From assembly GCA_025786725.1 (NCBI GenBank), contig JAHLTZ010000055.1, forward strand, positions 36,040 through 100,039: a stretch of 64,000 nucleotides of DNA, in the 5' to 3' direction. Below the pieces are notes generated by a model. It was not told where the DNA came from. It did not search any database and was given only the letters and a program-made list of their open reading frames with translations. Shown piece by piece: positions 3,248 to 63,395 of the stretch. Positions within the stretch are counted from its first letter, which is position 1, and each line of letters starts with the position of its first letter. A program made the position numbers and the translations under genes. This DNA is from Syncephalis fuscata (Eukaryota > Zoopagomycota > Zoopagomycetes > Zoopagales > Piptocephalidaceae).

Positions 3248-4164
3248 TATAAAATTTTTGTTTAATATTTATATCTCTGTGATTTTGTAAATATTGTAGT
3301 TGTGACAATAAAAATAATAGACATAAAATAAGTTGTGAGAGATAAAGAAATAAAAAATGGCAAATTACTCGGCTATTTATAGCAAATAGTAGTATATAGT
3401 AATAGTGCACGCTTTGTGTTTAAACAAAAAAATGTATTTTAACAATGGGCAGCATGGAAATAAAACAATCTAATTAAACGACAGCTTAAAATGGAAATTA
3501 GTAATTATTTATGTTAATTAAAATGTCGTCTTTTATAAAATTAGCTATTGATTTGCCACGTTAATGGCATAGAATAAATATGGCAACAGTGATATGGTGT
3601 AGTTGGAATAGAATAATCAAGGCAACAGTAAACAACATATTCCTTTGTTCAGATTTTATCATAAAATATAGTGTATAGTGTAATCTTACATGTAACATTG
3701 CCATGGCTTTCTTGACTCAATGGTTTTATTACCAAACTTATACAATATAACTATTTATTAATCTTATAAATTTAATCATAAAATTAATTATGTAGCAAAT
3801 AGTAATATTGAAATGTTTTGTTTATTGCTGTATATATAAGCGCAGATTGCATTTATCAACTCGCAACATTGCCAAGGTTTTGTAAATTAGCAAGATTAGC
3901 GGACATATAAGTGTAGTCGAAACGCACATATAACATTTCTTCCTGGACAGTACAATAGTTGCGCCAGTATGCTGATTTACAATCAAACAAAATGCCATTG
4001 TGATGGAAATCATGACATGCATTAAAATGTTTATTCTGTATGAACTGAGACATGAAATTCAATATAATAAGAAAAGTTTGTAATAACTAATTTACGATTA
4101 ATTTTCAGTTTTTCAGTATAAATAAAAAAGTATAATTGAAATAGTACCAAACACATAGTTTATA
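3248..4164. other. Intergenic, AT-rich
   Basis: Spacer between copies A and B of the secreted family. Short frames on both strands lack support from splice sites or conserved motifs. I see no gene. Confidence 0.4.
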
Positions 4165-5448: not shown

Positions 5449-5929
5449 TGAATTCTTATTAATGTGTATGTCTTTGTAACTTTGCAAATTATTATATTTG
5501 CAATAATAAAAATAAAAAACGTAAAATAAGTCGTGTGAAAACAAAGAAATAAACAAGGTGGGCTGTTCAATTGCTTATAGCAAATGGTAATATATAGTAA
5601 TTATGCACGCTTTATTGTTTAAGCGAAAAAAAACGTGTATTTTGATGGCTGCTAGCATAAAAGTAGAGCATTCTAATTGAATGAAAGCTCAAAATGGAAT
5701 TTATAATCGTGCATGCTAGTTGAAAATGCCGCTTTAGGTTTGAATACATTTTTATTCAAATTGGTAGTTGACTTGCTATATTAATGCTTTAGCAAAAATA
5801 TAATAGCAGCAATTTGAAGCTATTTAAAAGAGATAAATGGACAATAGCATACAGCTCAGTCATCAATTTGGTTTTTTATTTTATCAATTAAGTTATAAAA
5901 TATAGTATTAATTGTGATTACTTTACTAA
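5449..5929. other. Intergenic, upstream of copy B
   Basis: AT-rich upstream region of gene B. It resembles the region upstream of gene A (both contain a CGCTTT...GTTTAA segment about 150-180 bp upstream of the ATG), so the tandem duplication seems to include promoter sequence. Confidence 0.35.
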
Positions 5930-10103: not shown

Positions 10104-13100
10104 TTAAGCTATATTATAAATATATGCAATACATGTCATATAGTTAGTGTATAAACTAAGCATATAATATCAAGTACGCTTCATTATATCATACTAAACA
10201 CGCACGATGAATAATATATGTTTAACGTATTGGCAATCAATATACAATGTCACTTACAGCCTGTTAACACATATTATTCAATAAACATGGCGTATAGTAA
10301 TTGCTTAGCGTATATTTGATTACTGTACAGTGTCACTTACTAACTATCAATATAAATTATTGACCACACGCAGTGCATGGTATATATTTAGCGTATAATT
10401 GATTAGTATTCAATAGTACTTACCGGCTATTCATACAAGTTATTAAACATGCATATTGTATAACATATATTTAATGTATTATTAATTGGTCTACCATGAC
10501 ACCTACCCCCTATCAATAAAAGTTATTAAACGCGCATAGTACATAGAATATACTTGGTATATTACTAATTAATATACAATGACACTTACAATCTATCAAC
10601 AGAAATTATTAAGCATGCAAAGTGTACAACGTATGTTTAACCTATAGCTGATTAACATAAAATATAACCTATCAACTATCAATGCAAGTCATTAAGCGCG
10701 CATATCACGTGGTTAACGCACATTGACTAATATAAATGCTACTTACAACCTATTAATATAAGTTGTTAAATAAGCACAGCGTACAACATATGTTAACATA
10801 TAGTTTATCAATGTGCAATTCCACATACCAGCTATTGATGTCAGATTATCAAACAGACATAGTGTATCACATAAGTTTAGTGTATATTCAATTGCTATAC
10901 AATGCCACCTACCATCTATTAATGCAAATCATTAAATATCCAAAATGTATAAAATATGCTTAGTTCATAGTTAATTAATGTATAACGTCACCTACTAACT
11001 ATCGATGTCAGATTATCAAACATACAAATTGTATCACATATATTTGGTGTATATTCAATTGCTATACAATACTACTTGCTATCTATTAGTGTTATTTTAT
11101 TAAACACACATGAAGGACATATACTTAGTGTATAGTTAGCTGCCATACAATGCCACTTAAATCCTATCAACAAAATTATTCAACATACACGGTATATGGA
11201 TATGCTTAGTGTATGGTCAAATGGTGTCGTATTACTATTATGAAGGGGGACTGAGTAATACGGCAAGGTAGATAAAACACTAGGATCTTGTAATAAAAGG
11301 TTTTTCTTAGGATTGAACTACTTTATTAATAAATGTAAATATTCCAGCTTTTATAGCTGGCTTGACACATCGATTACGTGGTACCCGTGTACCACGTGTT
11401 CTGAATATGTCGCCACATCACTCCCTCACTAAGTGTCGAACGTCCCGTTGACACATTAAGTGAATTAGTGGAAAGGTTAGATAATGATATTTGGTTAATT
11501 GATATGTTGGGTAATAATAAATGGGCAGGTCGTGTGTGAAGTGGAATTATTCGATCAGCGTGTTCTGAAAACATTCTTTGTGTTTCCAAATCCTTGAGTC
11601 TGTAGTTGACAGCTGACGTTTGTTCTATCACTTTAAAAGGACCTTTCATTCTTTCTTTCATCTTTCTCAACTTCGTACCTTTTAGTAGTTGTTCTTCTAT
11701 CCACACTAAGTCACCTTCTTTAAATGGTTCTTTTCTTCTTCCTTTATTATACCTAGCCGACTGCCGACGTTGGGCCGCTTCAATCATTAACTTGGCTCTT
11801 TCCCTGACATCATTGAGTCGGAGTTGCAGATCGGTGACGTATTCCTCATATTCTTCTACTCTCTTATGGAACCGAACTGGAGCCGTTGAAACAGGGCCAA
11901 CTGCTACTTCTAATGGCTGAGTCGCCTCTCGGCCGAATAGTAACTGAAATGGTGAGTGGCCAGCGGATGACTGTTTCGTTGTTCTGTATGCAAACAATAG
12001 CAGGGGTAGATATTTATCCCAATCTTTTTCGAAATCACTAGTGAACTTAGCGATCATCGATGCAAGTGTATGATTAAAACGCTCAACTAGTCCGTCAGTC
12101 TGTGGACGTCGTGCGGAGGTAATCCGTCGCTGTATGCCAAGTCGTTTCGCAATACCGGCAGTTAATCCAGATGTAAAGTTAGTACCACCATCAGTAAGTA
12201 GTACACTAGGCATGCCGTGTCTAGCAATAACGTTATTCATCAGGAACTGTACTGTAGTTTCTGCAGTTGCATCTGGGATAGCAGCGGCTTCAATCCAACG
12301 CGTGGTGTAATCACAGCATACAGCTACGTACTTATTACCATGTTCAGACTCAGTAAATGGACCCATAAGGTCGATGGCAATAAAGTCGAATGGCTTTTCT
12401 GGCACTGGTAGTGATTGTAATAATCCAGATCGTTGGTGTATTCGTCGTATCTTCTGACATACTGTGCACGATGTCACATAGTCGCATACATCACTATGCA
12501 TATTCTGCCACCAGTAGCTCTGACGTAGTCGTTGGTAAGTACGAGTAATACCCAAATGACCAGCTAATTCTTTATCATGACAATGATATAGAACTATAGG
12601 TCGATATTGATTAGGCACAACATCCAACAACTCTGTCATCACATCGCCTTTCATAACCTTCCTCTTCAACCGACCAGTCACTAGCTCAAAGCGTTTAGCA
12701 CGTTTTCGTAAAGCACGCCGACTAGCATCGGACATTAGCGTCATATACTCAGCACCTTGTTGTAAATAAGCATATACATCAGCAGTAGTTAACTCTGTTT
12801 GTTGTGCATATACCCATTCTTCTTCAGTTGGTAGCAACGGTGTTGTATTTTCAGCTATGTGCATTACTTCTTCTACTTTGTCTTGTTCAGCTAGTTCAAC
12901 TAGTTCGTGCCATGGCAACGGATCTCGTGACAAGGCATCTGCATTGGCATTGGCAGTACCACGCCTATATTCGATAGTCGGACGGTATTCCTGTAACTTC
13001 AATGCCCAACGGCCAAGTCGACCAGTTGGATTGGGTCGTGACATTAACCAACGTAGAGCTGAGTGATCAGTGACTACTGTAAATTCACTACCGTATATAT

Positions 13101-16100
13101 AAGGTCGGAACTTCTCTATGGCCCATACAATAGCCATACATTCGCATTCGGTAGCTGAATAGTTCTTTTGTGCATCATTCAACGCTCTACTGGCATAAGC
13201 AATCGGTCGCCATCCATCGTCGATTTGTTGCGATAATACTGCGCCCAAACCGTAAGTAGAAGCATCAGTTTCAATTCGAAACGGCTTAGATAGTGTTGGA
13301 TAAGCTAACACAGTATCACTAGTCAATGTAGTGCGTAAATCATCGAAGGCGGTTTGTTGTTCGTCTGACCACACGAAGGGTGTACCTTTCTTCTCAAGGC
13401 GACGAATGGGCTCGGCTCGTTCGGCAAAACGGCTAATAAAGCGTCGATAATAGGATGCAAGACCAAGGAAACTTTTACAGCCACGTATATCAGTAGGGCG
13501 AGGGAAATTATGCACAGCAGCGACTTTATCTGGGTCTGGTTTAACACCATTAGCATTCACGACATGGCCAAGATAGGCTATTTGTTGTTGGCCAAAGTGA
13601 CATTTGCTACGTTTAAGGCGAAGTCCAGCATCGCGTAGACGATTAAAAACTGTTCGTAGACGTTGTAGGTGTTCATCAAACGTCCTACCAAATACAATAA
13701 TATCGTCTAAGTAAACAATACATGAATGCCACTTCAGACCAGCCAATACTTCGTCCATTAATCGTTGAAAGGTCGCTGGCGCGTTGCATAAGCCAAATGG
13801 CATGACACGGAATTGATATAGGCCAGCATGTGTAACAAAGGCTGTCTTTTCCTTGTCTGCTTCGTTCATTTGGATTTGCCAATAGCCAGAGGCAAGGTCC
13901 AAAGTAGTAAACCAACAGGCACCAGATAACATATCTAGTGCATCATCAATGCGAGTCGTAGGATATGAATCCTTCTTAGTGGCGTCGTTCAATTTACGAT
14001 AATCGACACAAAAACGTTCACCACCATCTTTCTTACCAACAAGGACAACTGGAGATGACCAAGGACTGCGAGATGGTTCAATAATGCCATTCTCAAGCAT
14101 ATCGTTAATGGCTTCAGTTATCTTTTCACGTTGACGGTAAGCAGAACGGTACGGAGGAGTATTAATGGGTTTAGAGTCACCAGTACTAATGGTATGGCGA
14201 ACTCTAGTAGCTGCTTGTGGATTATTCGGATTTACCGCGAATAGATCCGTATATTCCAGTAACAGTTTGTTGAGTCGGGCTAGTCGGATGGACTCAGACA
14301 GATCTACTCGAGGTAGTTGGGATAGTGCCAATGATACCACGGCATTATCAACTTGCTCGGTAGGTCGGATATCCCGTCTTACTAAGTGCTGTTGTAACTT
14401 AGAAAGTATCCGGCCATTACGGACTTTTCCAGCCACGGCAACTACATGTATACCGTGCGATGGAGTGTTGGACAATTTCATGTCAATGGATTGGCCATCA
14501 ATAAACAATTTGCCAGCTGCGCAATCAATGCTGGCACCAGCGGCGGATAACCAATCCATGCCTAATAATACTGGATACGGGGAAGTATCTAATACTATTG
14601 CTTTAACCTTCCGAACAACGCTAGCTATTTCGATATCCACCAAGGAGTGGCCACGAGTGTTAGCGTGTCGGCCATCAGCTAATCTAACGAATGAATCAGT
14701 GAACGGGCCTAAGACAAGGCCAATATTTCTACATATAGCGCTAGAAATAACCGTTCGTTCAGCACCCGTATCAATTAACATCGATACCATATGTCCATTA
14801 ATCGTTCCATCCTGCAATAATGTGGTAGCGGAAGCAACATTAATTGCGGATATGGTCGATAAGGGATTTACTTGGGGTGGGACGTCGTTACCCTTACACA
14901 TCGACGTCCCATTTAGTTTTCCGCCTGTTTGGCATCACCAGCAGGTAGTTTACTGGTTATCGATGCACGGGCAGTGGCTAAATTTGGACATTGATGCGTG
15001 TAGTGATTCGTATCATCACAGAGGGTACAAGGGAAGCGACGTGTAGCTGGCTGTTGTTTGGGGCGACGGTTATTGCCGGAACGGGTACCTACTTGCATTG
15101 CATTGGGTGCCGTCTTGGACACGGACAGAGATTGGTCATTAGTAACAACGTTTATGCTGGCCTTAGCCGCATGCAGTAACTTATGGGTGTATCTTCCTAA
15201 TTCAATACTATGACCAACAGATCGAAAGTCATCGATAGAACGGATTCGTAACGAGCGGACATTGCTGCGGACGTAGTCGTTAGAACCGATTTTGATCTGT
15301 TTCCAAATTTGTCTAGGCGTCCTTTTGGCATTGGTACCAGCTCTTTCAACTCTATCGGCGTATTCGAATAATGTTTCTTTGTCGTTTAAGCGAAGTAAGT
15401 AAAATTTGTTTTTCAACGCTTCTTTTGGATCACCAGCACACCATTTAATCTCTAACTCCTTTACTAACGTCGCGAATAGGCCAGGCTGGTACGATTGGAC
15501 ACGCGGCATATTGAGTAGGCACCATGCATTCTCGCGGTCACGCAGACCGTACATCAATCGACTGCATTTCGTGGGTTCATCCCATCCTGACAAACCAGCA
15601 ATCAAGTGGAAGCTACGCAGCCATTCAAAAGGATCCGCTTTAAAATCTAGTTTGTCAATATCCATTTTTGGTAGTTTAGTCATCACTTGAGGGACACTCA
15701 AGTCGGGTGGCTGTGTGACCACAGGTGGTACAACAGCAACAGGTTCAGGCTGACTATCTGCAATGGAAGGGAAAGATGAGGTGATGGATGTGGTGTCAGA
15801 GTCGTCCGAATCTATGGACGAAATGGACACTCGTCTGTTGATGCGTGTGGGTGTGGTGTTGTTGTCAGGTGGACCAAGTTCTGCAATTGGGGCAGTGCCA
15901 GGCGTTTCTACAGTGAACTGTGGAGCTGGTGTGTAGGTAGGAATTGGAGGATTTGGGTCTCCTGGGTTGAGTTGTCGAAAAGCGTGTACCAGCGACATTG
16001 TCAATTGAGCTGTTTGGTGAACAGTGAGTCCGTTGGTAGGATTTAGAATGGTGCGTAATAAGTTATCTACTAATGCTTGACTAGCGACGGGTACAGCTAC

Positions 16101-17574
16101 CGTTAAGTTATTAGTATCAGTAGGTGTATCGATTGGAGTAGCGAATGTCACCGGACGAGTACTAGTAATATTTTCTTGTTGTTGAACCGTAGCTATTGGT
16201 TGGTCAACTTGGACGACTTCATCAACGGTTTCTTCTGTTTCAGTTGATGCTACTTCATCAGTACCGCTTACTTCGGACATATTGTCGGGTACCGGCTCGT
16301 CAGTAGCCATTGCGGCTGCTGAGTTACGCGTACTACGACCAGAACGGGTTATACTAGACATGGTTATTAACAATGAACAATGAACAATGAGATGATTTGA
16401 TGGAAGTGAGGTACGAGAATGAATATGAATGTTACGATGGTAGAGACTATCAAATAGTGTTATATCTGTAGTATTGGGACTACGCGAACGGGCAGTTTAT
16501 GGGCAAACTGCCCAGGTCCTCCACCAATTGTCGTATTACTATTATGAAGGGGGACTGAGTAATACGGCAAGGTAGATAAAACACTAGGATCTTGTAATAA
16601 AAGGTTTTTCTTAGGATTGAACTACTTTATTAATAAATGTAAATATTCCAGCTTTTATAGCTGGCTTGACACATCGATTACGTGGTACCCGTGTACCACG
16701 TGTTCTGAATATGTCGCCACAAATGGTATACAATACTACTTACCAACTACCCATGCATGTTTAATAACAGGCACCATAAATGATACATATATATATGTTT
16801 AGTGTATAGCCAAATGGTCTAAAATGTGCCACTCACAATCTATTAATACAAGCCAACAAACAAACACAATGATAAAATATGTTTAGCATTGAATTAATCA
16901 ATATACAATACAACTTACCATCTATTGACGTTAATTTAGTAAACATACACAATATACGGCATGTGTTAGCATATTGTTAATTAATATACAATGTTGCCTA
17001 CAATCTATTAACACAAGATGTTAAATATAAACGATACATAACATATTTAGTGTATTTCTACTTGATATAAAATGTAACTTACTCCCTATTAATACAGGTT
17101 AATGAACATGCACGATGCATAATATATAGCTAGATTGTAGTCGATTAATATACAATTCACTTACAATCTATTAATGCAAGTTATTAAAAGCACATAGCAT
17201 ATGGCACATGTTTAGTGAATGGCTATTGCTATGTAATGGCACTTACAATCTATTAATAAAAATCATCAACCACACACAATGCATAGTATATGGTTAGAAT
17301 ATATTTAGTTAATATGCAATGCTACTCAACACCCTCTAATAGAAATTATTAAAAACACAATGTATAGAATATGTTTAGCTTATAATTGATTGGTTACAGT
17401 GCTAATTACCATCTATCAAAGTTAATTTAGCAAATAACAGCTTTTAGCTAAATGAATACTTGATTGGTTTAATTGCAACATACCACGACGAACTAGAACC
17501 GGTTTAGCGTCCACTATGGCTGTATTGACCATAGTTACGAGGACGGTGCAGACAACAGCAATAGAAAACCTCAT
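10104..17574 (-). CDS. Secreted-peptide precursor mu1 with single-codon microexon array, intron carries Ty3
   Basis: Paralogue of mu3 in opposite orientation. Leader exon 17574-17484 (91 nt) encodes MRFSIAVVC...AKPVLVRR plus one base, then a GTATGT donor. About 21 repeat units follow, each AG + NNN + donor. Examples: 17333-17335 (AGG), 16744-16746 (TTG), 11161-11163 (GAT), 11080-11082 (ATA), 10996-10998 (TTA), 10341-10343 (TTA), 10258-10260 (GCT). The terminal exon starts at 10108 and reads CT then TAA (10106-10104). The Ty3 element sits in the intron between units 9 and 10, in the same orientation as the gene, stretching that intron to about 5.6 kb. Unit 10 has a dead donor (TTAAGT) and unit 11 a GC donor. 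Whether it is still expressed is unknown. Deduced mature part: DEDYWNYDFG, then YINAGFDWAVSS if every unit is used. Confidence 0.55.
11225..11417 (-). repeat. 3' LTR of Ty3 copy 1
   Basis: 193 bp; the pol reading frame ends inside it (11374). It contains a TATAAAA flanked by CCAGC/GCTGG inverted repeats and a GTGGTAC/GTACCAC palindrome. Confidence 0.95.
11374..14901 (-). CDS. pol: Ty3 Pol polyprotein (protease, RT, RNase H, integrase), intact
   Basis: An 1175-residue frame starting MCKGNDVPP. Aspartic protease motif LIDTGAERT near residue 42. Reverse transcriptase with GKKDGGERFCVDYRKLND and the catalytic YLDD (IVYLDDIIVFG). RNase H segment starting RIETDASTYGLG. Integrase with an HHCC zinc finger (H...H...CTVC), a D,D,E core including DLMGPF, LLTDGGTNF and a downstream Glu (GLVERFN), then a C-terminal GPF module (KGPFKVIE). 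Domain order PR-RT-RH-INT defines Ty3/gypsy. The start codon lies 11 nt after the gag stop in a different frame, so Pol synthesis needs reinitiation or another recoding route. No chromodomain was recognised. Confidence 0.93.
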   Translation of the reverse strand: MCKGNDVPPQVNPLSTISAINVASATTLLQDGTINGHMVSMLIDTGAERTVISSAICRNIGLVLGPFTDSFVRLADGRHANTRGHSLVDIEIASVVRKVKAIVLDTSPYPVLLGMDWLSAAGASIDCAAGKLFIDGQSIDMKLSNTPSHGIHVVAVAGKVRNGRILSKLQQHLVRRDIRPTEQVDNAVVSLALSQLPRVDLSESIRLARLNKLLLEYTDLFAVNPNNPQAATRVRHTISTGDSKPINTPPYRSAYRQREKITEAINDMLENGIIEPSRSPWSSPVVLVGKKDGGERFCVDYRKLNDATKKDSYPTTRIDDALDMLSGACWFTTLDLASGYWQIQMNEADKEKTAFVTHAGLYQFRVMPFGLCNAPATFQRLMDEVLAGLKWHSCIVYLDDIIVFGRTFDEHLQRLRTVFNRLRDAGLRLKRSKCHFGQQQIAYLGHVVNANGVKPDPDKVAAVHNFPRPTDIRGCKSFLGLASYYRRFISRFAERAEPIRRLEKKGTPFVWSDEQQTAFDDLRTTLTSDTVLAYPTLSKPFRIETDASTYGLGAVLSQQIDDGWRPIAYASRALNDAQKNYSATECECMAIVWAIEKFRPYIYGSEFTVVTDHSALRWLMSRPNPTGRLGRWALKLQEYRPTIEYRRGTANANADALSRDPLPWHELVELAEQDKVEEVMHIAENTTPLLPTEEEWVYAQQTELTTADVYAYLQQGAEYMTLMSDASRRALRKRAKRFELVTGRLKRKVMKGDVMTELLDVVPNQYRPIVLYHCHDKELAGHLGITRTYQRLRQSYWWQNMHSDVCDYVTSCTVCQKIRRIHQRSGLLQSLPVPEKPFDFIAIDLMGPFTESEHGNKYVAVCCDYTTRWIEAAAIPDATAETTVQFLMNNVIARHGMPSVLLTDGGTNFTSGLTAGIAKRLGIQRRITSARRPQTDGLVERFNHTLASMIAKFTSDFEKDWDKYLPLLLFAYRTTKQSSAGHSPFQLLFGREATQPLEVAVGPVSTAPVRFHKRVEEYEEYVTDLQLRLNDVRERAKLMIEAAQRRQSARYNKGRRKEPFKEGDLVWIEEQLLKGTKLRKMKERMKGPFKVIEQTSAVNYRLKDLETQRMFSEHADRIIPLHTRPAHLLLPNISINQISLSNLSTNSLNVSTGRSTLSEGVMWRHIQNTWYTGTT
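14913..16361 (-). CDS. gag: Ty3 Gag, intact
   Basis: About 482 residues from the ATG at 16361 (MSSITRSGRSTRN). The N-terminus is acidic and Thr/Ser/Pro-rich. A capsid-like region follows (KMDIDKLDFKADPFEWL ... SGWDEPTKCSRLMYGL). Near the C-terminus is a CCHC zinc knuckle, CTLCDDTNHYTHQC. Gag forms the virus-like particle and binds the genomic RNA. It ends with TAA at 14915-14913, followed at once by an ATG and, 11 nt after the stop, by the Pol ATG. Confidence 0.92.
   Translation of the reverse strand: MSSITRSGRSTRNSAAAMATDEPVPDNMSEVSGTDEVASTETEETVDEVVQVDQPIATVQQQENITSTRPVTFATPIDTPTDTNNLTVAVPVASQALVDNLLRTILNPTNGLTVHQTAQLTMSLVHAFRQLNPGDPNPPIPTYTPAPQFTVETPGTAPIAELGPPDNNTTPTRINRRVSISSIDSDDSDTTSITSSFPSIADSQPEPVAVVPPVVTQPPDLSVPQVMTKLPKMDIDKLDFKADPFEWLRSFHLIAGLSGWDEPTKCSRLMYGLRDRENAWCLLNMPRVQSYQPGLFATLVKELEIKWCAGDPKEALKNKFYLLRLNDKETLFEYADRVERAGTNAKRTPRQIWKQIKIGSNDYVRSNVRSLRIRSIDDFRSVGHSIELGRYTHKLLHAAKASINVVTNDQSLSVSKTAPNAMQVGTRSGNNRRPKQQPATRRFPCTLCDDTNHYTHQCPNLATARASITSKLPAGDAKQAEN
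16529..16721 (-). repeat. 5' LTR of Ty3 copy 1
   Basis: 193 bp. The internal sequence next to it, in element orientation, begins ATTGGTGGAGGACCTGGG. The TGGTGG... stretch is the probable tRNA primer-binding site; the tRNA was not identified. Confidence 0.93.
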
Positions 17575-34815: not shown

Positions 34816-35975
34816 ATGAAGCTTTCCATTGCCGTTGTTTGCATCGTCGTGGCTTTGATAGCCGCTACAACCATGGTCGATGCTAAACCAACCATGGTGG
34901 ATGATAAACCAACTTTGGTTCGTCGTGGTATGTTTAATGACAATAATATATATATTATTATGCTTACTAACAGTATTTTAACTTAATATTAATAGAGGGT
35001 AAATTATATAATATATTAACTGATATGCACTAATTATGTATCATGTATTATGCGTATAAATAATTCAATATTAATAGACTGTAAGTTGCATTATATGTTG
35101 ACTGACTACGCACTAATTATGTACCATGTATTATGCGTATAAATGACTTAATATTAATAGGTTGTAAGTTGCATTACATGTTGACTGACTATGCACTAAT
35201 TATGTACCATGTATTATGCATATAAATAATTTAATATCAATAGGGTGTAAGTTGCATTACATGTTGACTGAATATATACTAATTATGTATTATATATTAT
35301 GCATATAAATAATTTAATATTAATAGGGTGTAAGTTGCATTACATGTTGACTGAACATATACTAATTATTACCATGTATTATGCGTATAAATGACTTAAT
35401 ATTAATAGTCCGTAAGTTGCATTACATTTTGACTGACTATGCACTAATTATGTACCATGTATTATGCATATAAATAATTTAATATTAATAGGGGGTAAGT
35501 TGCATTATATATCAACTGACTACGCACTAATTATGTACTATGTATTATGCATATAAATAACTTAATATCAATAGGTTGTAAGTTGTATTATATGTTAACT
35601 GAATATATACTAATTATGTATATATATTATACTATAAATGATTAATATTAATAGGGAGTAAGTGCATTATATATTAACTAACTATGCACTAATCATGTAT
35701 CATGTATTATGCGTATAAATAATCCAATATTAATAGGGAGTAAGTTAATTATATATCGACTGACTATGCACTAATTATGTAGCATATATTACGGTATAAA
35801 AATTAATACTAATAGCTTGTAAGTTATATTATATATTAAATAAATAAATACTAATCATGTGTCATTTACTATATGTATTAAAACTTGATACTAATAGGCG
35901 GTAAGTAGCCTTTTTATTGATGACTATGCATTAACCATATAACATATAATATATTTATTCGTAAATACAGCATAA
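34816..35975 (+). CDS. Secreted-peptide precursor mu2 encoded by 12 single-codon microexons
   Basis: Leader exon 34816-34927 encodes a signal peptide (MKLSIAVVCIVVALIAATT), an internal MVDAKPT/MVDDKPT duplication, and LVRR plus one base. Twelve 3-nt exons follow: 34996 AGG, 35078 ACT, 35161 GTT, 35244 GGT, 35327 GGT, 35409 TCC, 35492 GGG, 35575 GTT, 35655 GGA, 35737 GGA, 35816 CTT, 35898 GCG. Each is preceded by AG and followed by GTAAGT (GTAAAT after the first). The terminal exon begins at 35971 (CA, then TAA). Joined in phase 1, the product after Arg-Arg is EDCWWFRGWRTCA. Introns are 68-80 nt. This looks like a Kex2-processed secreted peptide with a potential Cys3-Cys12 disulfide. Role unknown: pheromone, signal, antimicrobial and effector are all possible. 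No transcript evidence is available here. Confidence 0.75.
34928..35970 (+). repeat. Tandem array of intron + 3-nt exon units (mu2)
   Basis: Thirteen introns of 68-80 nt in head-to-tail near-repeats. Each has a GTAAGT donor, a CACTAAT-like branch box about 30 nt in, and a TTAATAG or similar acceptor. The first intron has a perfect TACTAAC (34965-34971). The units are strongly alike, but the three bases between acceptor and donor differ from unit to unit. Confidence 0.85.
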
Positions 35976-36201
35976 TCGATGTTTTAAGACATCAGCATTG
36001 GTATGCAATCAAACCACTATTCCAATACACTATAGGTATATATTCGGTGAAAATCAAGGCCATTTGACAACTACGCCGTCCAGTCTATTTATATCAAGTA
36101 TTGGCCAATGCTTTGGTTTATCCAGTCTTTAATCAATGGAATCATTATTTTGCCAACAACTTTGCATTTAGTTGTCCTATTCAACTGTGCAAGTTTATAG
36201 T

Positions 36202-38365: not shown

Positions 38366-40818
38366 CTACACATTGATTTTTACCCCGACACTTTTGGACG
38401 AACTAGCATCTGATTTGAGAATGCTATTTGACTTTTTGTTATTAGCCAAGTCTTCTTCGTCTTCATCTTCGTCTTCTCTTTGAAATGCTGGTTTAAGGTT
38501 TTGAACGGGTGCTTGGGGCAATGGTGAGCGTGGGGCTGCTGAATTAGATGTAGGAGCGGGGGCAGGGGTCGATGTAGATGTAGAACTAGAGGTAGAACTA
38601 GAAGATGTAGCTATAGATGTAGTAGCTGGAACAGATGCTGGGGAAGGTGGCGACAATTTTTGTTGTGGATTTAGTGAAGCTGGCTTAATTTCGGAGGCAT
38701 TAATAGGTGGTGTAGGCTTTGAAGCTGATGGGATAGGTGTGGAAGTAGTCGTGGAAGTAGTCGTGGAAGTAGAGGTAGCTAAATTTGAAGCTGGCGTAGT
38801 TGTAGTGTCTTGTGGAATTAATTCTGAATCAGCACGCTTTTGTTTCGAATCTGGAGCAGCCAAAACTTGTGGCGGAGAAGTTAGCTGTGCAGATTCTGGC
38901 ATTTTAGTAGCTTGAACTGAGGTGGGCATAGCTTGTGTCGTAATAGAGGCTGGAGTAACTTGAGCTGAAGTTGAACTAACCTGCACTGAATCTGGCTTTA
39001 CAATAGATTGAGCTGGTACTTTTCTTTTGTATTTGTATTAGCTTGAACTGATGGAGGAGGAACCACTTGAGCTGGCCCTGAAGCTGGATTTGCTTGAGCT
39101 GGTACTTTTGTATTTGTATTAGCTTGAACTGATGGAGGAGGAACCACTTGAGCTGGCCCTGAAGCTGGATTTGCTTGAGCTGGTACTTTTGTATTTGTAT
39201 TAGCTTGAACTGATGGAGGAGGAACCACTTGAGCTGGTCCTGAAGCTGGATTTGCTTGAGCTGGTACTTTTGTATTTGTATTAGCTTGAACTGATGGAGG
39301 AGGAACCACTTGAGCTGGCCCTGAAGCTGGATTTGCTTGAGCTGGTACTTTTGTATTTGTATTAGCTTGAACTGATGGAGGAAGAACCACTTGAGCTGGC
39401 CCTGAAGCTGGATTTGCTTGAGCTGGTACTTTTGTATTTGTATTAGCTTGAACTGATGGAGGAGGAACCACTTGAGCTGGTCCTGAAGCTGGATTTACTT
39501 GAACTGGTATGTTTGAATCCGAATTTGATTGAGCTAATGGTGGTAAAAGATTGAGTACTGGAGCAACTCCTATTTGTACTGTTGCAATTAAAGAATTAGG
39601 ATCAGAATCTAAGTTAGCTGGCGTTGTGCTTTCAGAGGGAGCTGCGTTTTGAGCTGGTGTTGACGCCGGTAATGGGCTAGAAGCTGGCTTATTGGAATCT
39701 GGTGGCGTTTGAGCAGGATGCTTAAAGCCAGGCTGACTTAGAACTACAAAGTTTCTCGGTAACAGATTGGCTGGACGTGGTGCTTGTTGTGTAGGCGGAT
39801 GAGGCGCAGGTTTATTTCCAGCTTCAGAATGATCTTGCAAGTTGTTGATTGAAAGAGGCGACTTTTGGGCAGGTGCCTTTAACTCAGGCTGGGTTTTAGC
39901 TGTAGAATTTGGTTTTAATTCATTTAAAGATCCTAGCTTTATATCTATTATAAATTCATATTTAGTTGCTGTTTGCAAACTACTATGAATTAACTTACCA
40001 GTTGAACCCGTCACAGGTATCAAAGGCTGACCTTGCTGCGATGACGGCGATGATGAATTATCTGCAGTGTCTTTAGAGTTTGCATCGGTTACTTTACTAG
40101 GTATTGGAATAGTATCGATAAAGTTGTTATTTTCTGAGTTAGTATTTGGATTAACAATAGCTGCCGTTTGTATTGGTGCTTCTTTATTGCCAATAATAGC
40201 CAGACTAGTTGCTGAGTTTGATGGCATAGTAGTAGGCAAAGGTTTTACCGATGCCTTTGGGGGTGGTTCTACCTTTGATGAGCTTGTAGCTGCTGGTGCT
40301 ATTGCTGTAGGTTTTACATTAGGTGCATTGCTAATAGCTGATGAAGCAGGCTTTTTTGCGCCGTTAGTTAATGTTGCCATACACACTAGCGAAATCGACC
40401 CAATGGTTAATTTTTTGCACCTTTTCTGCAGTTCGTTAAATCGATTACACGAAAAATCAACCATCTGTCCAACAGGAGCCGGTGCTCCACCAAACTTATT
40501 CCAAGTAAAGTTTGAGAGACATTCACTGGCGGAATGTCCGTTTTCAATGCACACCTCGCGATTACATCTTAACATAAGCTCATCACAGCACGATTTATCC
40601 ACGTTGCAAGTGGCGTAGCAGCTGGTATGCATTTTGTAGCATTCTGGCAATTTTGTATCTTCAGGTTTGAATCTGCTCACAATTGATGGTTGCGTTGGCT
40701 GTTGCGCAGCGTTTGGCAATTTACAGTTGCCTATGGGTGTTATGTCTTTGTCGTCGGCTACAGCGGATGCAATCAGTATTGCTGCTGTGAAGACAGCCCA
40801 TGTTGTATGATGTTTCAT
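38366..40818 (-). CDS. Secreted PLA2-like cysteine-rich protein with 27-residue Pro/Ala repeats
   Basis: Starts at 40818 with a signal peptide (MKHHTTWAVFTAAILIASA). Residues about 60-135 hold a cysteine-rich domain with CYKMHTSCYATCN...CCDELMLRC, which resembles the helix-loop-helix of group XII secreted phospholipase A2 (HDxCYxTC...CD). The His is kept but the calcium-binding Asp next to it is Thr, so catalysis is doubtful. A long Pro/Ala/Ser/Thr-rich region follows, with about six near-perfect copies of a 27-residue unit (VPAQANPASGPAQVV...) at about 39010-39530. The C-terminus is acidic (EDEDEDEED). One base is missing in an A run near 39022; without it the frame ends at 38998. The gene is probably an extracellular or wall-associated protein. 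Confidence 0.65.
39010..39530 (-). repeat. 81-bp in-frame tandem repeat
   Basis: About six units encoding the 27-residue Pro/Ala/Gln-rich motif. Units are nearly identical, which points to recent expansion or homogenisation. Confidence 0.9.
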
Positions 40819-49322: not shown

Positions 49323-51285
49323 ATGAGGTTTTCTATTGCTGTTGTCTGCACCGTCCTCGTAACTATGGTCAATACAGCCATAGTGGACGCTAAACCGGTT
49401 CTAGTTCGTCGTGGTATGTTGCAATTAAACCAATCAAGTATTCATTTAGCTAAAAGCTGTTATTTGCTAAATTAACTTTGATAGATGGTAATTAGCACTG
49501 TAACCAATCAATTATAAGCTAAACATATTCTATACATGTGTTTTTAATAATTTCTATTAGAGAATGGTAAGTAGCATTGCATATTAACTAAATACATTTT
49601 AACCATATACTATGCATTGTGTGTGGTTGATGATTTTTATTAATAGATTGTAGGTGCCATTACATAGCAATAGCCATTCACTAAACATGTGCCATATGCT
49701 ATGTGCTTTTAACAACTTGCATTAATAGATTGTAAGTGAATTGTATATTAATCGACTACAATCTAGTTATATATTATGCATTGTGCGTGTTCATTAACCT
49801 GTATTAATAGGGAGTAAGTTACATTTTATATCAAGTAGAAATACACTAAATATGTTATGTATCGTTTATATTTAACACCTTGTGTTAATAGATTGTAGGC
49901 AACATTGTATATTAATTAACAATATGCTAACACATGCCGTATATTGTGTATGTTTACTAAATTAACGTCAATAGATGGTAAGTTGTATTGTATATTGATT
50001 AATTCAATGCTAAACATATTTTATCATTGTGTTTGTTTGTTGGCTTGTATTAATAGATTGTGAGTGGCACATTTTAGACCATTTGGCTATACACTAAACA
50101 TATATATATGTATCATTTACGGTGCATGTTATTAAACATGCATGGATAGTTGGTAAGTAGTATTGTGTACCATTTGACCATACACTAAGCATATCCATAT
50201 ACCGTGTATGTTGAATAATTTTGTTGATAGGATGTAAGTGGCATTGTATGGCAGCTAACTATACACTAAGTATATGTCCTTTATGTGTGTTTAATAAAAT
50301 AACACTAATAGATAGTAAGTAGTATTGTATAGCAATTGAATATACACAAATATATGTGATACAATTTGTATGTTTGATAATCTGACATCGATAGTTAGTA
50401 GTGACGTTATACATTAATTAACTATGAACTAAGCATATTTTATACATTTTGGATATTTAATGATTTGCATTAATAGATGGTAGGTGGCATTGTATAGCAA
50501 TTGAATATACACTAAACTTATGTGATACACTATGTCTGTTTGATAATCTGTCATCAATAGCTGGTATGTGGAATTGCACATTGATAAACTATATGTTAAC
50601 ATATGTTGTACGCTGTGCTTATTTAACAACTTATATTAATAGGTTGTAAGTAGCATTTATATTAGTCAATGTGCGTTAACCACGTGATATGCGCGCTTAA
50701 TGACTTGCATTGATAGTTGATAGGTTATATTTTATGTTAATCAGCTATAGGTTAAACATACGTTGTACACTTTGCATGCTTAATAATTTCTGTTGATAGA
50801 TTGTAAGTGTCATTGTATATTAATTAGTAATATACCAAGTATATTCTATGTACTATGCGCGTTTAATAACTTTTATTGATAGGGGGTAGGTGTCATGGTA
50901 GACCAATTAATAATACATTAAATATAATTATACAATATGCATGTTTAATAACTTGTATGAATAGCCGGTAAGTACTATTGAATACTAATCAATTATACGC
51001 TAAATATATACCATGCACTGCGTGTGGTCAATAATTTATATTGATAGTAGTAAGTGACACTGTACAGTAATCAAATATACGCTAAGCAATTACTATACGC
51101 CATGTTATTGAATAATATGTGTTAACAGGCTGTAAGTGACATTGTATATTGATTGCCAATACGTTAAACATATATTATTCATCGTGTGTGTTTAGTATGA
51201 TATAATGGAGCGTACTTGATATTATATGCTTAGTTTATACACTAACTATATGACATGTATTGTATATATTTATAATATAGCTTAA
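49323..51285 (+). CDS. Secreted-peptide precursor mu3 with about 21 microexons
   Basis: Leader exon 49323-49413 encodes MRFSIAVVCTVLVTMVN...AKPVLVRR plus one base, then GTATGT. Microexons: 49485 ATG, 49561 AGAATG (6 nt), 49647 ATT, 49729 ATT, 49811 GGA, 49892 ATT, 49975 ATG, 50057 ATT, 50150 TTG, 50231 GAT, 50312 ATA, 50395 TTA, 50477 ATG, 50561 CTG, 50643 GTT, 50717 TTG (donor ATAGGT), 50800 ATT, 50883 GGG, 50965 CCG, 51048 TA (TTA in mu1), 51129 GCT. The terminal exon starts at 51281 and reads CT, TAA (51283-51285). Using TTA for the 51048 unit, the phase-1 product after Arg-Arg begins DENDYWNYDFG and continues YINAGFDWAVSS. It is acidic and aromatic, unlike the mu2 peptide, while leader and promoter are conserved. 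Function unknown. Confidence 0.68.
49414..51280 (+). repeat. Tandem array of intron + 3-nt exon units (mu3)
   Basis: Introns of 71-90 nt, mostly 78-81, each with GTAAGT/GTAGGT-type donor, a CTAAA/CTAAC-like box and an ATAG acceptor. The last interval is 149 nt, about two units long, and contains a degenerate acceptor/donor near 51209. Confidence 0.82.
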
Positions 51286-56847: not shown

Positions 56848-58048
56848 TTATTGGTTAAGCAACGAAAACGAATTAAAGACAAATATATAGCTGTGTATAT
56901 TTAGATATACGTTTTCGCCCAATGTAATCATACTATGATCGCGAGATATAAAGCGGTAGAGGCTCTTCGTCCTCACTACTTGATGGACTAGATTGACGTC
57001 TAATAACAGGTGTACTATCGAGCAAAGGATCGTTGTAATGTTGGCCGTATTGTCGTGGATGTTGATAAGGAGGTGCATTAATTGTCGGTATTGCTAAATC
57101 CTTGTATTTATCTTTAACATTTTTAATGCATCCTTGTGATTCAAACGAAGTTCAGTTTTACAATAGAAATAAGCTAGCCAATACCATAGTCTATCATTTG
57201 CTATTGTAATTTCATCATCGTATACCCGTCCATCAGCGAATAGGAGAGAGACTCTATAGGACGTATAGCATCAATGGAAACAAATGTTATGCGATCATTC
57301 TCAATGCAACCATCTGATGATTATATAAGCATATTGACAAGTATAAACAGTTAAATACGTAACTTACAATTTTCAATAGCATTACTAATCGACCATCCTT
57401 TTGCTTTCATGTCTTTGACCACTATTCGATTGACAGTTAGCAAAATAGTATTGCAGCTAATATGTACTTGCAGTTTATAAAATTTAAAAGTCTAGATCTT
57501 GCTACTTGTGGCGCAACAAACTCACGAAAACTATAATAATAAACAGTTTCCTTGCATTGTGGATTAACGACCATGTAGCAAAGATAGCCTCCGTCTATAG
57601 TAAATCTTTTAATAATAGAATAAAATGGCTTTGGTGGTGAATTTGATTCAAACATGTTGAAATCCCAGAATACATATCCTACAAGCAAACTTATTAAGAC
57701 TAATGTTTATAGTAATAATGGGTATGCATACGTTTATAATTTAAATGGTAAATACTCAGTTGGTCCATTTCTACATATAATCTTAGTATTGGGTTGATAA
57801 AATCCATCTACATTGTATTGCCCCTCCATAACATATGCATTATCTACTTTTACTGCATTTTTAATAATGGTAAGTTTGTTAATGCCAAATGCACCAGGTT
57901 GATTTAGTTGATACTCAGAAAAAGGATCTAACATTATAATATAAATATTACTATTGCAATACAAGTTCTTTAGGCTACTACCTTTTGCACCAAAAATACT
58001 CTGTAGTATTGCCATGCTTTGGTTAACTAATAGCAGCACCAGGAGTGG
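56848..58048 (-). pseudogene. Secreted-family copy C, 5' end removed at a Ty3 LTR
   Basis: Third paralogue of the 2133/4165 family. It retains the end of the leader (LLVLLLVNQSMA), the Cys-containing exon 1, exon 2 (DPQC-like NPQCKE, GGYLCYM) and the C-terminal exons with KDKYKDLAIPTI and the acidic SSPSSSEDEE segment. The match to copy B stops at 58048, where the LTR begins, so the start codon and promoter are gone. What follows the Ty3 element at 63545 does not resemble the missing 5' region. Exon 2 ends at a GC donor, as in copy B. Confidence 0.65.
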
Positions 58049-58241
58049 TGTGGCGACATATTCAGAACACGTGGTACACGGGTACCACGTAATCGATGTG
58101 TCAAGCCAGCTATAAAAGCTGGAATATTTACATTTATTAATAAAGTAGTTCAATTCGAAGAAAACCTTTTATTTACAAGATCCTAGTGTTTTATCTACCT
58201 TGCCGTATTACTCAGTCCCCCTTCATAATAGTAATACGACA
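58049..58241 (+). repeat. 5' LTR of Ty3 copy 2
   Basis: 193 bp with a few differences from the 3' LTR near 58150-58175. Confidence 0.93.
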
Positions 58242-58262: not shown

Positions 58263-58408
58263 TTTGCCCATAAACTGCCCGTTCGCGTAGTCCCAATACT
58301 ACAGATATAACACTATTTGATAGTCTCTACCATCGTAACATTCATATTCATTCTCGTACCTCACTTCCATCAAATCATCTCATTGTTCATTGTTCATTGT
58401 TAATAACC

Positions 58409-59856
58409 ATGTCTAGTATAACCCGTTCTGGTCGTAGTACGCGTAACTCAGCAGCCGCAATGGCTACTGACGAGCCGGTACCCGACAATATGTCCGAAGT
58501 AAGCGGTACTGATGAAGTAGCATCAACTGAAACAGAAGAAACCGTTGATGAAGTCGTCCAAGTTGACCAACCAATAGCTACGGCTCAACAACAAGAAAAT
58601 ATTACTAGTACTCGTCCGGTGACATTCGCTACTCCAACCGATACACCTACTGATACTAATAACTTAACGGTAGCTGTGCCCGTCGCTAGTCAAGCATTAG
58701 TGGATAACCTATTACGCACCATTCTAAATCCTACCAACGGACTCACTGTTCACCAAACAGCTCAATTGACCATGTCGCTGGTACACGCTTTTCGACAACT
58801 CAACCCAGGAGACCCAAATCCTCCAATTCCTACCTACACACCAGCTCCACAGTTCACTGTAGAAACGCCTGGCACTGCCCCAATTACAGAACTTGGTCCA
58901 CCTGACAACAACACCACACCCACACGCATCAACAGACGAGTGTCCATTTCGTCTATAGATTCGGACGACTCTGACACCACATCCATCACCTCATCTTTCC
59001 CTTCCATTGCAGATAGTCAGCCTGAACCTGTTGCTGTTGTACCACCTGTGGTCACACAGCCACCCGACTTGAGTGTCCCTCAAGTGATGACTAAACTACC
59101 AAAAATGGATATTGACAAACTAGATTTTAAAGCGGATCCTTTTGAATGGTTGCGTAGCTTCCACTTGATTGCTGGTTTGTCAGGATGGGATGAACCCACA
59201 AAATGCAGTCGATTGATGTACGGTCTGCGTGACCGCGAGAATGCATGGTGCCTACTCAATATGCCGCGTGTCCAATCGTACCAGCCTGGCCTATTCGCGA
59301 CGTTAGTAAAGGAATTAGAGATTAAATGGTGTGCTGGTGATCCAAAAGAAGCGTTGAAAAACAAATTTTACTTACTTCGCTTAAACGACAAAGAAACATT
59401 ATTCGAATACGCCGATAGAGTTGAAAGAGCTGGTACCAATGCCAAAAGGACGCCTAGACAAATTGGAAACAGATCAAAATCGGTTCTAACGACTACGTCC
59501 GCAGCAATGTCCGCTCGTTACGAATCCGTTCTATCGATGACTTTCGATCTGTTGGTCATAGTATTGAATTAGGAAGATACACCCATAAGTTACTGCATGC
59601 GGCTAAGGCCAGCATAAACGTTGTTACTAATGACCAATCTCTGTCCGTGTCCAAGACGGCACCCAATGCAATGCAAGTAGGTACCCGTTCCGGCAATAAC
59701 CGTCGCCCCAAACAACAGCCAGCTACACGTCGCTTCCCTTGTACCCTCTGTGATGATACGAATCACTACACGCATCAATGTCCAAATTTAGCCACTGCCC
59801 GTGCATCGATAACCAGTAAACTACCTGCTGGTGATGCCAAACAGGCGGAAAACTAA
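58409..59856 (+). pseudogene. gag: Ty3 Gag, copy 2, one frameshift
   Basis: Matches copy 1 Gag until about 59463, where AAATTT has become AAATT, shifting the frame. The zinc knuckle lies in the downstream frame. This may be a real lesion or an assembly error. Confidence 0.8.
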
Positions 59857-59867
59857 ATGGGACGTCG

Positions 59868-62800
59868 ATGTGTAAGGGTAACGACGTCCCACCCCAAGTA
59901 AATCCCTTATCGACCATATCCGCAATTAATGTTGCTTCCGCTACCACATTATTGCAGGATGGAACGATTAATGGACATATGGTATCGATGTTAATTGATA
60001 CGGGTGCTGAACGAACGGTTATTTCTAGCGCTATATGTAGAAATATTGGCCTTGTCTTAGGCCCGTTCACTGATTCATTCGTTAGATTAGCTGATGGCCG
60101 ACACGCTAACACTCGTGGCCACTCCTTGGTGGATATCGAAATAGCTAGCGTTGTTCGGAAGGTTAAAGCAATAGTATTAGATACTTCCCCGTATCCAGTA
60201 TTATTAGGCATGGATTGGTTATCCGCCGCTGGTGCCAGCATTGATTGCGCAGCTGGCAAATTGTTTATTGATGGCCAATCCATTGACATGAAATTGTCCA
60301 ACACTCCATCGCACGGTATACATGTAGTTGCCGTGGCTGGAAAAGTCCGTAATGGCCGGATACTTTCTAAGTTACAACAGCACTTAGTAAGACGGGATAT
60401 CCGACCTACCGAGCAAGTTGATAATGCCGTGGTATCATTGGCACTATCCCAACTACCTCGAGTAGATCTGTCTGAGTCCATCCGACTAGCCCGACTCAAC
60501 AAACTGTTACTGGAATATACGGATCTATTCGCGGTAAATCCGAATAATCCACAAGCAGCTACTAGAGTTCGCCATACCATTAGTACTGGTGACTCTAAAC
60601 CCATTAATACTCCTCCGTACCGTTCTGCTTACCGTCAACGTGAAAAGATAACTGAAGCCATTAACGATATGCTTGAGAATGGCATTATTGAACCATCTCG
60701 CAGTCCTTGGTCATCTCCAGTTGTCCTTGTTGGTAAGAAAGATGGTGGTGAACGTTTTTGTGTCGATTATCGTAAATTGAACGACGCCACTAAGAAGGAT
60801 TCATATCCTACGACTCGCATTGATGATGCACTAGATATGTTATCTGGTGCCTGTTGGTTTACTACTTTGGACCTTGCCTCTGGCTATTGGCAAATCCAAA
60901 TGAACGAAGCAGACAAGGAAAAGACAGCCTTTGTTACACATGCTGGCCTATATCAATTCCGTGTCATGCCATTTGGCTTATGCAACGCGCCAGCGACCTT
61001 TCAACGATTAATGGACGAAGTATTGGCTGGTCTGAAGTGGCATTCATGTATTGTTTACTTAGACGATATTATTGTATTTGGTAGGACGTTTGATGAACAC
61101 CTACAACGTCTACGAACAGTTTTTAATCGTCTACGCGATGCTGGACTTCGCCTTAAACGTAGCAAATGTCACTTTGGCCAACAACAAATAGCCTATCTTG
61201 GCCATGTCGTGAATGCTAATGGTGTTAAACCAGACCCAGATAAAGTCGCTGCTGTGCATAATTTCCCTCGCCCTACTGATATACGTGGCTGTAAAAGTTT
61301 CCTTGGTCTTGCATCCTATTATCGACGCTTTATTAGCCGTTTTGCCGAACGAGCCGAGCCCATTCGTCGCCTTGAGAAGAAAGGTACACCCTTCGTGTGG
61401 TCAGACGAACAACAAACCGCCTTCGATGATTACGCACTACATTGACTAGTGATACTGTGTTAGCTTATCCAACACTATCTAAGCCGTTTCGAATTGAAAC
61501 TGATGCTTCTACTTACGGTTTGGGCGCAGTATTATCGCAACAAATCGACGATGGATGGCGACCGATTGCTTATGCCAGTAGAGCGTTGAATGATGCACAA
61601 AAGAACTATTCAGCTACCGAATGCGAATGTATGGCTATTGTATGGGCCATAGAGAAGTTCCGACCTTATATATACGGTAGTGAATTTACAGTAGTCACTG
61701 ATCACTCAGCTCTACGTTGGTTAATGTCACGACCCAATCCAACTGGTCGACTTGGCCGTTGGGCATTGAAGTTACAGGAATACCGTCCGACTATCGAATA
61801 TAGGCGTGGTACTGCCAATGCCAATGCAGATGCCTTGTCACGAGATCCGTTGCCATGGCACGAACTAGTTGAACTAGCTGAACAAGACAAAGTAGAAGAA
61901 GTAATGCACATAGCTGAAAAATACAACACCGTTGCTACCAACTGAAGAAGAATGGGTATATGCACAACAAACAGAGTTAACTACTGCTGATGTATATGCT
62001 TATTTACAACAAGGTGCTGAGTATATGACGCTAATGTCCGATGCTAGTCGGCGTGCTTTACGAAAACGTGCTAAACGCTTTGAGCTAGTGACTGGTCGGT
62101 TGAAGAGGAAGGTTATGAAAGGCGATGTGATGACAGAGTTGTTGGATGTTGTGCCTAATCAATATCGACCTATAGTTCTATATCATTGTCATGATAAAGA
62201 ATTAGCTGGTCATTTGGGTATTACTCGTACTTACCAACGACTACGTCAGAGCTACTGGTGGCAGAATATGCATAGTGATGTATGCGACTATGTGACATCG
62301 TGCACAGTATGTCAGAAGATACGACGAATACACCAACGATCTGGATTATTACAATCACTACCAGTGCCAGAAAAGCCATTCGACTTTATTGCCATCGACC
62401 TTATGGGTCCATTTACTGAGTCTGAACATGGTAATAAGTACGTAGCTGTATGCTGTGATTACACCACGCGTTGGATTGAAGCCGCTGCTATCCCAGATGC
62501 AACTGCAGAAACTACAGTACAGTTCCTGATGAATAACGTTATTGCTAGACACGGCATGCCTAGTGTACTACTTACTGATGGTGGTACTAACTTTACATCT
62601 GGATTAACTGCCGGTATTGCGAAACGACTTGGCATACAGCGACGGATTACCTCCGCACGACGTCCACAGACTGACGGACTAGTTGAGCGTTTTAATCATA
62701 CACTTGCATCGATGATCGCTAAGTTCACTAGTGATTTCGAAAAAGATTGGGATAAATATCTACCCCTGCTATTGTTTGCATACAGAACAACGAAACAGTC

Positions 62801-63395
62801 ATCCGCTGGCCACTCACCATTTCAGTTACTATTCGGCCGAGAGGCGACTCAGCCATTAGAAGTAGCAGTTGGCCCTGTTTCAACGGCTCCAGTTCGGTTC
62901 CATAAGAGAGTAGAAGAATATGAGGAATACGTCACCGATCTGCAACTCCGACTCAATGATGTCAGGGAAAGAGCCAAGTTAATGATTGAAGCGGCCCAAC
63001 GTCGGCAGTCGGCTAGGTATAATAAAGGAAGAAGAAAAGAACCATTTAAAGAAGGTGACTTAGTGTGGATAGAAGAACAACTACTAAAAGGTACGAAGTT
63101 GAGAAAGATGAAAGAAAGAATGAAAGGTCCTTTTAAAGTGATAGAACAAACGTCAGCTGTCAACTACAGACTCAAGGATTTGGAAACACAAAGAATGTTT
63201 TCAGAACACGCTGATCGAATAATTCCACTTCACACACGACCTGCCCATTTATTATTACCCAACATATCAATTAACCAAATATCATTATCTAACCTTTCCA
63301 CTAATTCACTTAATGTGTCAACGGGACGTTCGACACTTAGTGAGGGAGTGATGTGGCGACATATTCAGAACACGTGGTACACGGGTACCACGTAA
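59868..63395 (+). pseudogene. pol: Ty3 Pol, copy 2, two frameshifts
   Basis: Same domains as copy 1. The frame breaks at about 61430 (TTT to TT, between RT and RNase H) and at about 61918 (A4 to A5, before the integrase). All catalytic motifs remain across the three frames. Confidence 0.82.

Follow-up and report, generated by a model that had tools for sequence, protein, structure and literature searches.

Predicted single-codon exons in tandem arrays of putative secreted-peptide genes of the fungus Syncephalis fuscata

We analyzed a 64,000-nt stretch of the Syncephalis fuscata genome (positions 36,040 to 100,039 of contig JAHLTZ010000055.1; hereafter, the window), and in particular the gene mu2, in which a leader exon is followed by twelve tandem units consisting of AG, exactly three bases and a donor-like GT. 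Very probably, these triplets are real 3-nt exons of one codon each, joined by ordinary short-intron splicing, so that mu2 would encode a small secreted peptide and depend on the spliceosome for its assembly. A sequence-only reading of the window had proposed consecutive single-codon exons in phase 1, and the family as a whole supports this through its stop codons, its leaders, its homology to intronless paralogues and one array/intronless twin pair (L012 and L020); the support comes from these family-wide tests, not from mu2 alone. The mu2 array is one member of a genome-wide class that extends beyond the single gene first noted. Syncephalis, a genus of Zoopagomycota, is mycoparasitic (PMC6784888, PMC10386755).

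All twelve triplets proposed for mu2 were found at their positions, with AG before and GT after each; the donor is GTAAGT in 11 of the 12 units and GTAAAT in the first. The leader, with the donor context GTATGTTT and an apparent signal peptide, judged by eye, ends in phase 1, as had been claimed. The predicted introns are, in order, 68, 79, 80, 80, 80, 79, 80, 80, 77, 79, 76, 79 and 70 nt long. The joined frame translates to MKLSIAVVCIVVALIAATTMVDAKPTMVDDKPTLVRREDCWWFRGWRTCA and, again in agreement with the earlier reading, stays open until a TAA two bases inside the terminal exon; the predicted product is MKLSIAVVCIVVALIAATTMVDAKPTMVDDKPTLVRR-EDCWWFRGWRTCA, followed by the stop. The terminal exon contains a conserved 3' part (AAGACATCAGCATTG, at 35986) and is like the exon found after other arrays and in intronless paralogues. 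Tandem Repeats Finder (TRF) describes the array as 10.4 copies of period 83 with 84% matches.

The exact pattern WATAG-NNN-GTAAGT was counted in the 28.95-Mb assembly of S. fuscata. There are 3,287 occurrences (1450 + 1837), compared to 60 (27 + 33) in the backward-read control, while spacers of 2, 4 and 6 nt gave 103, 104 and 67 versus control values of 98, 91 and 48, that is, at or near the background. Other spacer lengths were counted in the fetched loci (32 sequences, after removal of 7 redundant loci): TAG-N3-GTAAG was found 583 times, and every other spacer length from 0 to 39 was found 3-26 times. Since the strict pattern recovers 494 of the 634 units in the fetched loci, approximately 4,200 units are expected genome-wide by extrapolation. 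A relative of the mu2 leader is matched in at least 150 places in the genome.

One test concerns the reading frame across the predicted introns. It included 36 non-redundant arrays (4 of 40 were removed as duplicates), with 502 pairs of neighboring units that are 55-100 nt apart. Codons in phase 1, i.e., the last base of a triplet and the first two bases of the next, include 1 stop in 502, compared to 29.6±4.0 for shuffled triplets (5000 shuffles, minimum 13); the expectation is 25.9±4.1 with shuffling within arrays, and 25.1 when the arrays of the window are excluded. The control codons in phase 2 (two bases from the end of a triplet plus the first base of its successor) include 34 stops versus 35.7 expected, or 38.6 with within-array shuffles. 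Triplets read alone have 2 stops in 591 versus 7.7 expected, so that the third frame is stop-poor, too; for this reason, the contrast between the two cross-intron phases is the telling one. Phase-1 codons are enriched in Cys (64 versus 39.6 expected) and Trp (36 versus 19.1 expected). The avoidance of stops is the signature of codons that would be completed from one microexon to the next, with the leader determining the phase. A one-off or a chance satellite was ruled out by the motif counts (3,287 versus 60) together with this frame test.

The putative introns resemble ordinary short introns. Between neighboring units they are 57-90 nt long (median 78, n = 539); those of exactly 80 nt (161 introns) have the consensus GTAAGT...CACTAAT...TTAATATTAATAG, and CTAAY is present in 344 of the 539. 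For comparison, introns of ordinary genes in the window were picked by eye among the listed candidates: two candidate introns resemble those of the arrays, one of 114 nt in a PX-kinase gene, with the end TATTTTATTAATAG / ACTAATATTTTATTAATAG, and one of 84 nt in a transporter gene, which reads GTAAGTTA...CTACAG.

Gene models were built for the 19 loci having both a leader and a terminal anchor, a set that is silent on how many arrays lack either; the leader exon was taken to end where a donor-like GT first follows the leader. In every one of the 19, this end is in phase 1 and the leader (e.g., MKLSIAVV...) resembles a signal peptide by eye, and the pro-region ends in Arg-Arg in 18 (Gly-Arg in L012). 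The models have 9 to 47 predicted internal 3-nt exons each, and in 17 of the 19 the first stop falls on the terminal junction or within the opening codons of the terminal exon; the exceptions are L014, which stops within the array, and L037, for which the model rule calls no terminal acceptor. The predicted array products are often Cys-rich, for example, NGHQICTDCTYSECKKCKTYCEK (L038) and CDQCVRDQCDPNSWKITRWFCKREWC (L016). The decoded products of L031, L032 and L033 are not (e.g., PLPVPVDENGRKSGSAGRTVTPTP); thus, the architecture is not tied to one type of peptide.

Searches gave no significant Pfam profile match to known Cys-rich peptide families such as defensin-like or trypsin inhibitor-like ones (best Fer4_10, 0.0096, and TIL, 0.018, each for 1 of 12 members), and in the profile search of PDB the best value was 0.45, with a big defensin at 0.57. 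A structure model was too poor to be of use (mean predicted local distance difference test, pLDDT, 62.9). In a profile search with the intronless relatives, all 15 of the matching database proteins were from S. fuscata. It should be noted that units 8 and 9 of L012 are 493 nt apart, with approximately 400 bp of unlike DNA, partly transfer RNA (tRNA)-like by eye, inside the array intron; ARAGORN found no tRNA in eight loci, including this insert. The initial 600 bases of four contigs were examined for repeats of the TTAGGG type and contained none.

Intronless paralogues provide a standard for the decoded arrays. Many leaders continue directly into an uninterrupted Cys-rich frame, after which come a stop and a similar 3' part (TAATCGATGGTTTCAAGACATCAGCATTG and variants), and three of these loci (L046, L074 and L060) are exactly the database proteins P0002, P0003 and P0014; the paralogues show the type of peptide that the arrays would be expected to encode. 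A profile was made from 18 intronless mature peptides (L023 was left out and L065 was cut to 40 residues) and applied to every model that has 20 or more units (10 of the 19), an unreported score counting as -5. The decoded arrays sum to 115.7 bits, compared to 26.7±9.5 for shuffled triplet order (n = 200, maximum 51.8), and to -34.6, -21.9 and -7.3 for phase 0, phase 2 and reversed order, respectively. For 7 of the 10 arrays taken individually, no more than 3 of the 200 shuffles score as high.

In the twin pair, identity between the array L012, with 14 microexons called, and the intronless L020 is 96.6% in 500 bp of upstream sequence and 99.1% in 705 bp of downstream sequence. The segment AGCCATGTTGGC of L020 equals the neighboring L012 microexons AGC, CAT, GTT and GGC joined, and the last L012 junction aligns to L020 as well, with a 3-nt gap. 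Spliced L012 aligns to L020 with a score of 58, compared to 38.9±5.8 for shuffled triplets (2 of 1000 reach 58) and 8 with all triplets skipped; the two peptides are related, not equal. When every intron disappears together and the flanks stay intact, loss mediated by complementary DNA (cDNA) is usually indicated, and such a loss is the simplest history of the pair, the opposite direction being less likely. If the introns were lost through cDNA, a spliced RNA must have existed. No intronless twin of mu2 was found among the loci examined.

Two database proteins touch on array junctions. P0001 (locus L081) resolves exactly into a 94-nt leader exon, which has the donor GTATGT, and a second exon beginning with the first microexon (ATG); thus, this existing model, whether based on prediction or on transcripts, uses the predicted junction between leader and microexon 1. 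P0008 (L029) is one residue off (N for D) from a path in which the leader is followed by the microexons CTC and AGG and then by ATC, which is read through; if transcript-based, this model would be direct evidence for the L029 microexons. For P0004, P0005, P0007, P0010 and P0011, no splice path was resolved, and the locus of P0005 was not located.

The units, their phase and frame, the homology to intronless genes and the whole-unit gain and loss in duplicates are observed features, and we propose the following mechanism for them. The leader exon would encode a signal peptide and a pro-region ending in Arg-Arg, presumably a Kex2-type cleavage site; in mu2, twelve homologous modules would follow, each with an intron of about 79 nt and a 3-nt exon, and the terminal exon would supply the stop. 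As all introns would be in phase 1, each codon would combine the last base of one microexon with the first two of the next. Splicing would proceed stepwise by intron definition, with each removal bringing the next GTAAGT to the exon end, much as at a recursive splice site, except that one codon would be retained at every step. Stepwise splicing is probable because a 3-nt exon could hardly be bound at both ends simultaneously; the paper on an Arabidopsis 1-nt exon argues likewise for stepwise removal (PMC4674806). That splicing takes place, its order and the cleavage at Arg-Arg are what we infer. The peptides would most likely target the fungal host or microbial competitors, given their apparent secretion, Cys content and the lifestyle of the fungus. 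With every microexon of 3 nt and every intron in phase 1, any skipped subset keeps the frame; we tentatively raise the rather doubtful idea that microexon skipping would let one gene yield many combinations of residues, and thereby a library of secreted peptides, as a programmable peptide diversifier that the mycoparasite has evolved.

Recombination between similar introns would add or remove modules and, with them, whole residues in frame. Duplicated arrays are consistent with this: L031 is longer than L079 by 162 nt (two units), and L080 carries several units that are absent from L034, so that the encoded peptides would change by whole residues in frame. Differences in triplets were compared to those in introns for several pairs. 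For L002/L003, we found 8 of 54 triplet bases changed versus 74 of 1501 in introns (p = 0.0061), and for the distant pair L016/L024, 46 of 93 versus 416 of 3029. The recent pairs have few triplet differences (1 of 27 for L013/L015, 0 of 63 for L031/L079 and 1 of 69 for L034/L080), and the two parts shared by mu1 and mu3, two further arrays of the window, have none (0 of 21 and 0 of 21). Hypervariability of triplets as a general rule was rejected, being limited to L002/L003 and L016/L024 and not seen in recent pairs, and we make no claim of positive selection.

Several observations weigh against the interpretation of the triplets as spliced codons, which is a prediction from genomic sequence. 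In recent duplicates the triplets are not more conserved than the introns. The only phase-1 stop belongs to L014, where it lies between unit 9 and the last unit, 10, and several models are approximate, as they contain units that are weak or gaps (161-893 bp) that are not modelled. Three arrays (L028, L034 and L037) are not clearly above shuffles in the profile test (27, 52 and 17 of 200). The match between L012 and L020 is one pair, and six other arrays, including mu2, do not clearly beat shuffles against L020 (65-849 of 1000), although this is expected if the match is pair-specific. Database models with an array-type leader do not decode the arrays: the second exon of P0001 continues through the GTAAGT donor of microexon 1 to a stop, and P0008 has no exact GT/GC-AG path in L029. 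Transcriptome data for S. fuscata seem to exist; the species is named among the hosts in a survey of viruses based on transcriptomes of early-diverging fungi (PMC7482067).

Other explanations have to be compared with the same data. The lack of excess triplet conservation in recent duplicates would fit an array that is one large intron, with the leader joined to the terminal exon, the triplets always skipped and little made beyond the signal peptide; the leader donor and the terminal acceptor are indeed frame-compatible, with an immediate stop. Skipped triplets, however, would not avoid stops solely in the phase of the leader, nor would they decode to homologues of the intronless paralogues, and L020 aligns to the spliced L012 (58), not to its skipped form (8), which makes this explanation highly improbable. 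We give just as little credence to the idea that the arrays are decaying relics, or a satellite derived from a former gene, that were once spliced and are no longer expressed. Degenerate donors and a 2-nt unit in mu3 (compared to mu1), the split of mu1 by a Ty3-type element and the early stop in L014 speak for decay. Nevertheless, 1 stop in 502 pairs requires continued selection or a very recent origin, and L031/L079 and L034/L080 differ by whole units, yet have 1 change in 132 triplet bases.

The direction of evolution is a separate question. If intronless genes were ancestral and each of their codons had received an introner-like element in phase 1, the present mechanism would be unchanged and the history alone would differ; this origin, which we regard as unlikely, overlaps with the reading of the triplets as single-codon exons. 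The common upstream and 3' regions of intronless and array forms make either direction possible. However, the units are tandem homologues (the 84% TRF matches) with whole-unit indels, which points to duplication of modules, and complete intron loss with intact flanks is, as noted above, usual for the cDNA route.

Features of the three arrays in the window (predicted exons and introns; positions are those of the window)
Feature	Position	Strand	Description
mu2 leader exon	34816..34927	+	112 nt, phase-1 end, ATG, pro-region ending Val-Arg-Arg, donor GTATGT
mu2 intron 1	34928..34995	+	68 nt
mu2 microexon 1	34996..34998	+	AGG, donor GTAAAT
mu2 microexon 2	35078..35080	+	ACT
mu2 microexon 3	35161..35163	+	GTT
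mu2 microexon 4	35244..35246	+	GGT
mu2 microexon 5	35327..35329	+	GGT
mu2 microexon 6	35409..35411	+	TCC
mu2 microexon 7	35492..35494	+	GGG
mu2 microexon 8	35575..35577	+	GTT
mu2 microexon 9	35655..35657	+	GGA
mu2 microexon 10	35737..35739	+	GGA
mu2 microexon 11	35816..35818	+	CTT
mu2 microexon 12	35898..35900	+	GCG
mu2 terminal exon, 5' portion	35971..36010	+	CA, then TAA (35973-35975), then conserved 3' part
mu3	49323..51285	+	second array gene; leader MRFSIAVVCTVLVTMVNTAIVDAKPVLVRR, phase-1 end after 91 nt
mu3 array	49485 to 51131	+	17 units called, some degenerate
mu3 terminal exon	from 51281	+	TAA 51283-51285
mu1	10104..17574	-	near-identical to mu3; leader ATG at 17574; array interrupted by Ty3-type element
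Ty3-type element inside mu1	11374-16496 (reading frames)	-	gag and pol frames

The window contains two further, related arrays, mu3 on the forward strand and mu1 on the reverse strand. Compared to mu1, mu3 has single-base deletions between positions 50370 and 51060, including a 2-nt unit between AG and GT and a weakened donor, which could reflect either decay or sequencing error. A second, near-identical Ty3-type element, with frames broken into pieces, lies at 58274-63395 (forward strand). Two further observations concern the reverse strand. Six nearly perfect 81-bp coding repeats (39024-39509) lie in a 612-aa frame with an apparent signal peptide at its start, and a small repeated family, possibly secreted and by eye unlike the array leaders (SMAMLKLIFGENGNSIVNLYCNSNI and variants), is found at 3108-3419, 4870-5574 and 57734-58168.

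Very short exons have been described in other organisms. The 1-nt exon of Arabidopsis APC11 is an isolated exon (PMC4674806), and so are the 1-nt exon of Fusarium CYP621A and the 3-bp exon of Drosophila homothorax (PMC12940212, PMC7392893). These cases indicate that spliceosomes can include exons of 1-3 nt, and CYP621A is likewise backed by an intronless relative. Very short exons have been argued to hinder spliceosome binding (PMC4674806). Drosophila ratchet points are juxtaposed acceptors and donors in long introns, i.e., zero-nucleotide exons (PMC8605326). Like the array units, they have an acceptor followed at once by a donor, with one step creating the next donor. Unlike ratchet points, where AG abuts GT and no nucleotide is retained, the counted units have three nucleotides between AG and GT, which would be kept at each step, and the introns are short.

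Bicycle genes of aphids, the exons of which are larger than one codon, share with the array models internal exons that start in codon position 2; in the latter, all modelled introns lie after codon position 1. These putative effectors form a large family, their small exons are numerous and nearly all begin in codon position 2, and in the accessible part of the source, which deals with another organism, one-codon arrays are not mentioned (PMC9168663).

No earlier description of arrays of 3-nt exons, or of a gene with a separate exon for every residue, was found among the matches listed in the literature on fungal micro-exons, small and single-codon exons, Schistosoma micro-exon and bicycle genes, recursive splicing and Syncephalis, with subscription journals mostly outside coverage. 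In the accessible parts of the cited papers, exons of 1-3 nt are isolated, apart from the range of 3-81 bp in one abstract on micro-exon genes (MEGs). If the interpretation is true, S. fuscata would offer a natural setting in which to study intron definition and stepwise splicing pushed to their limit, the arrays would be a gene class that the examined database models fail to decode, and their peptides would evolve residue by residue through recombination between introns. The closest concept is that of the Schistosoma MEGs, from which the arrays appear to descend in idea: MEGs have a signal peptide, many short exons, mostly multiples of three, and a secreted variable protein, and the models here have a leader that resembles a signal peptide, a putatively secreted product and such exons in large numbers (9 to 47). 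Exons of MEGs are 6-81 bp long (3-81 in the abstract), the majority having 15 bp, and their introns measure approximately 0.1-5 kb (PMC10526429). The arrays do not have this size range, and differ from MEGs in that every modelled internal exon is 3 nt and the introns, of 57-90 nt, are tandem homologues.
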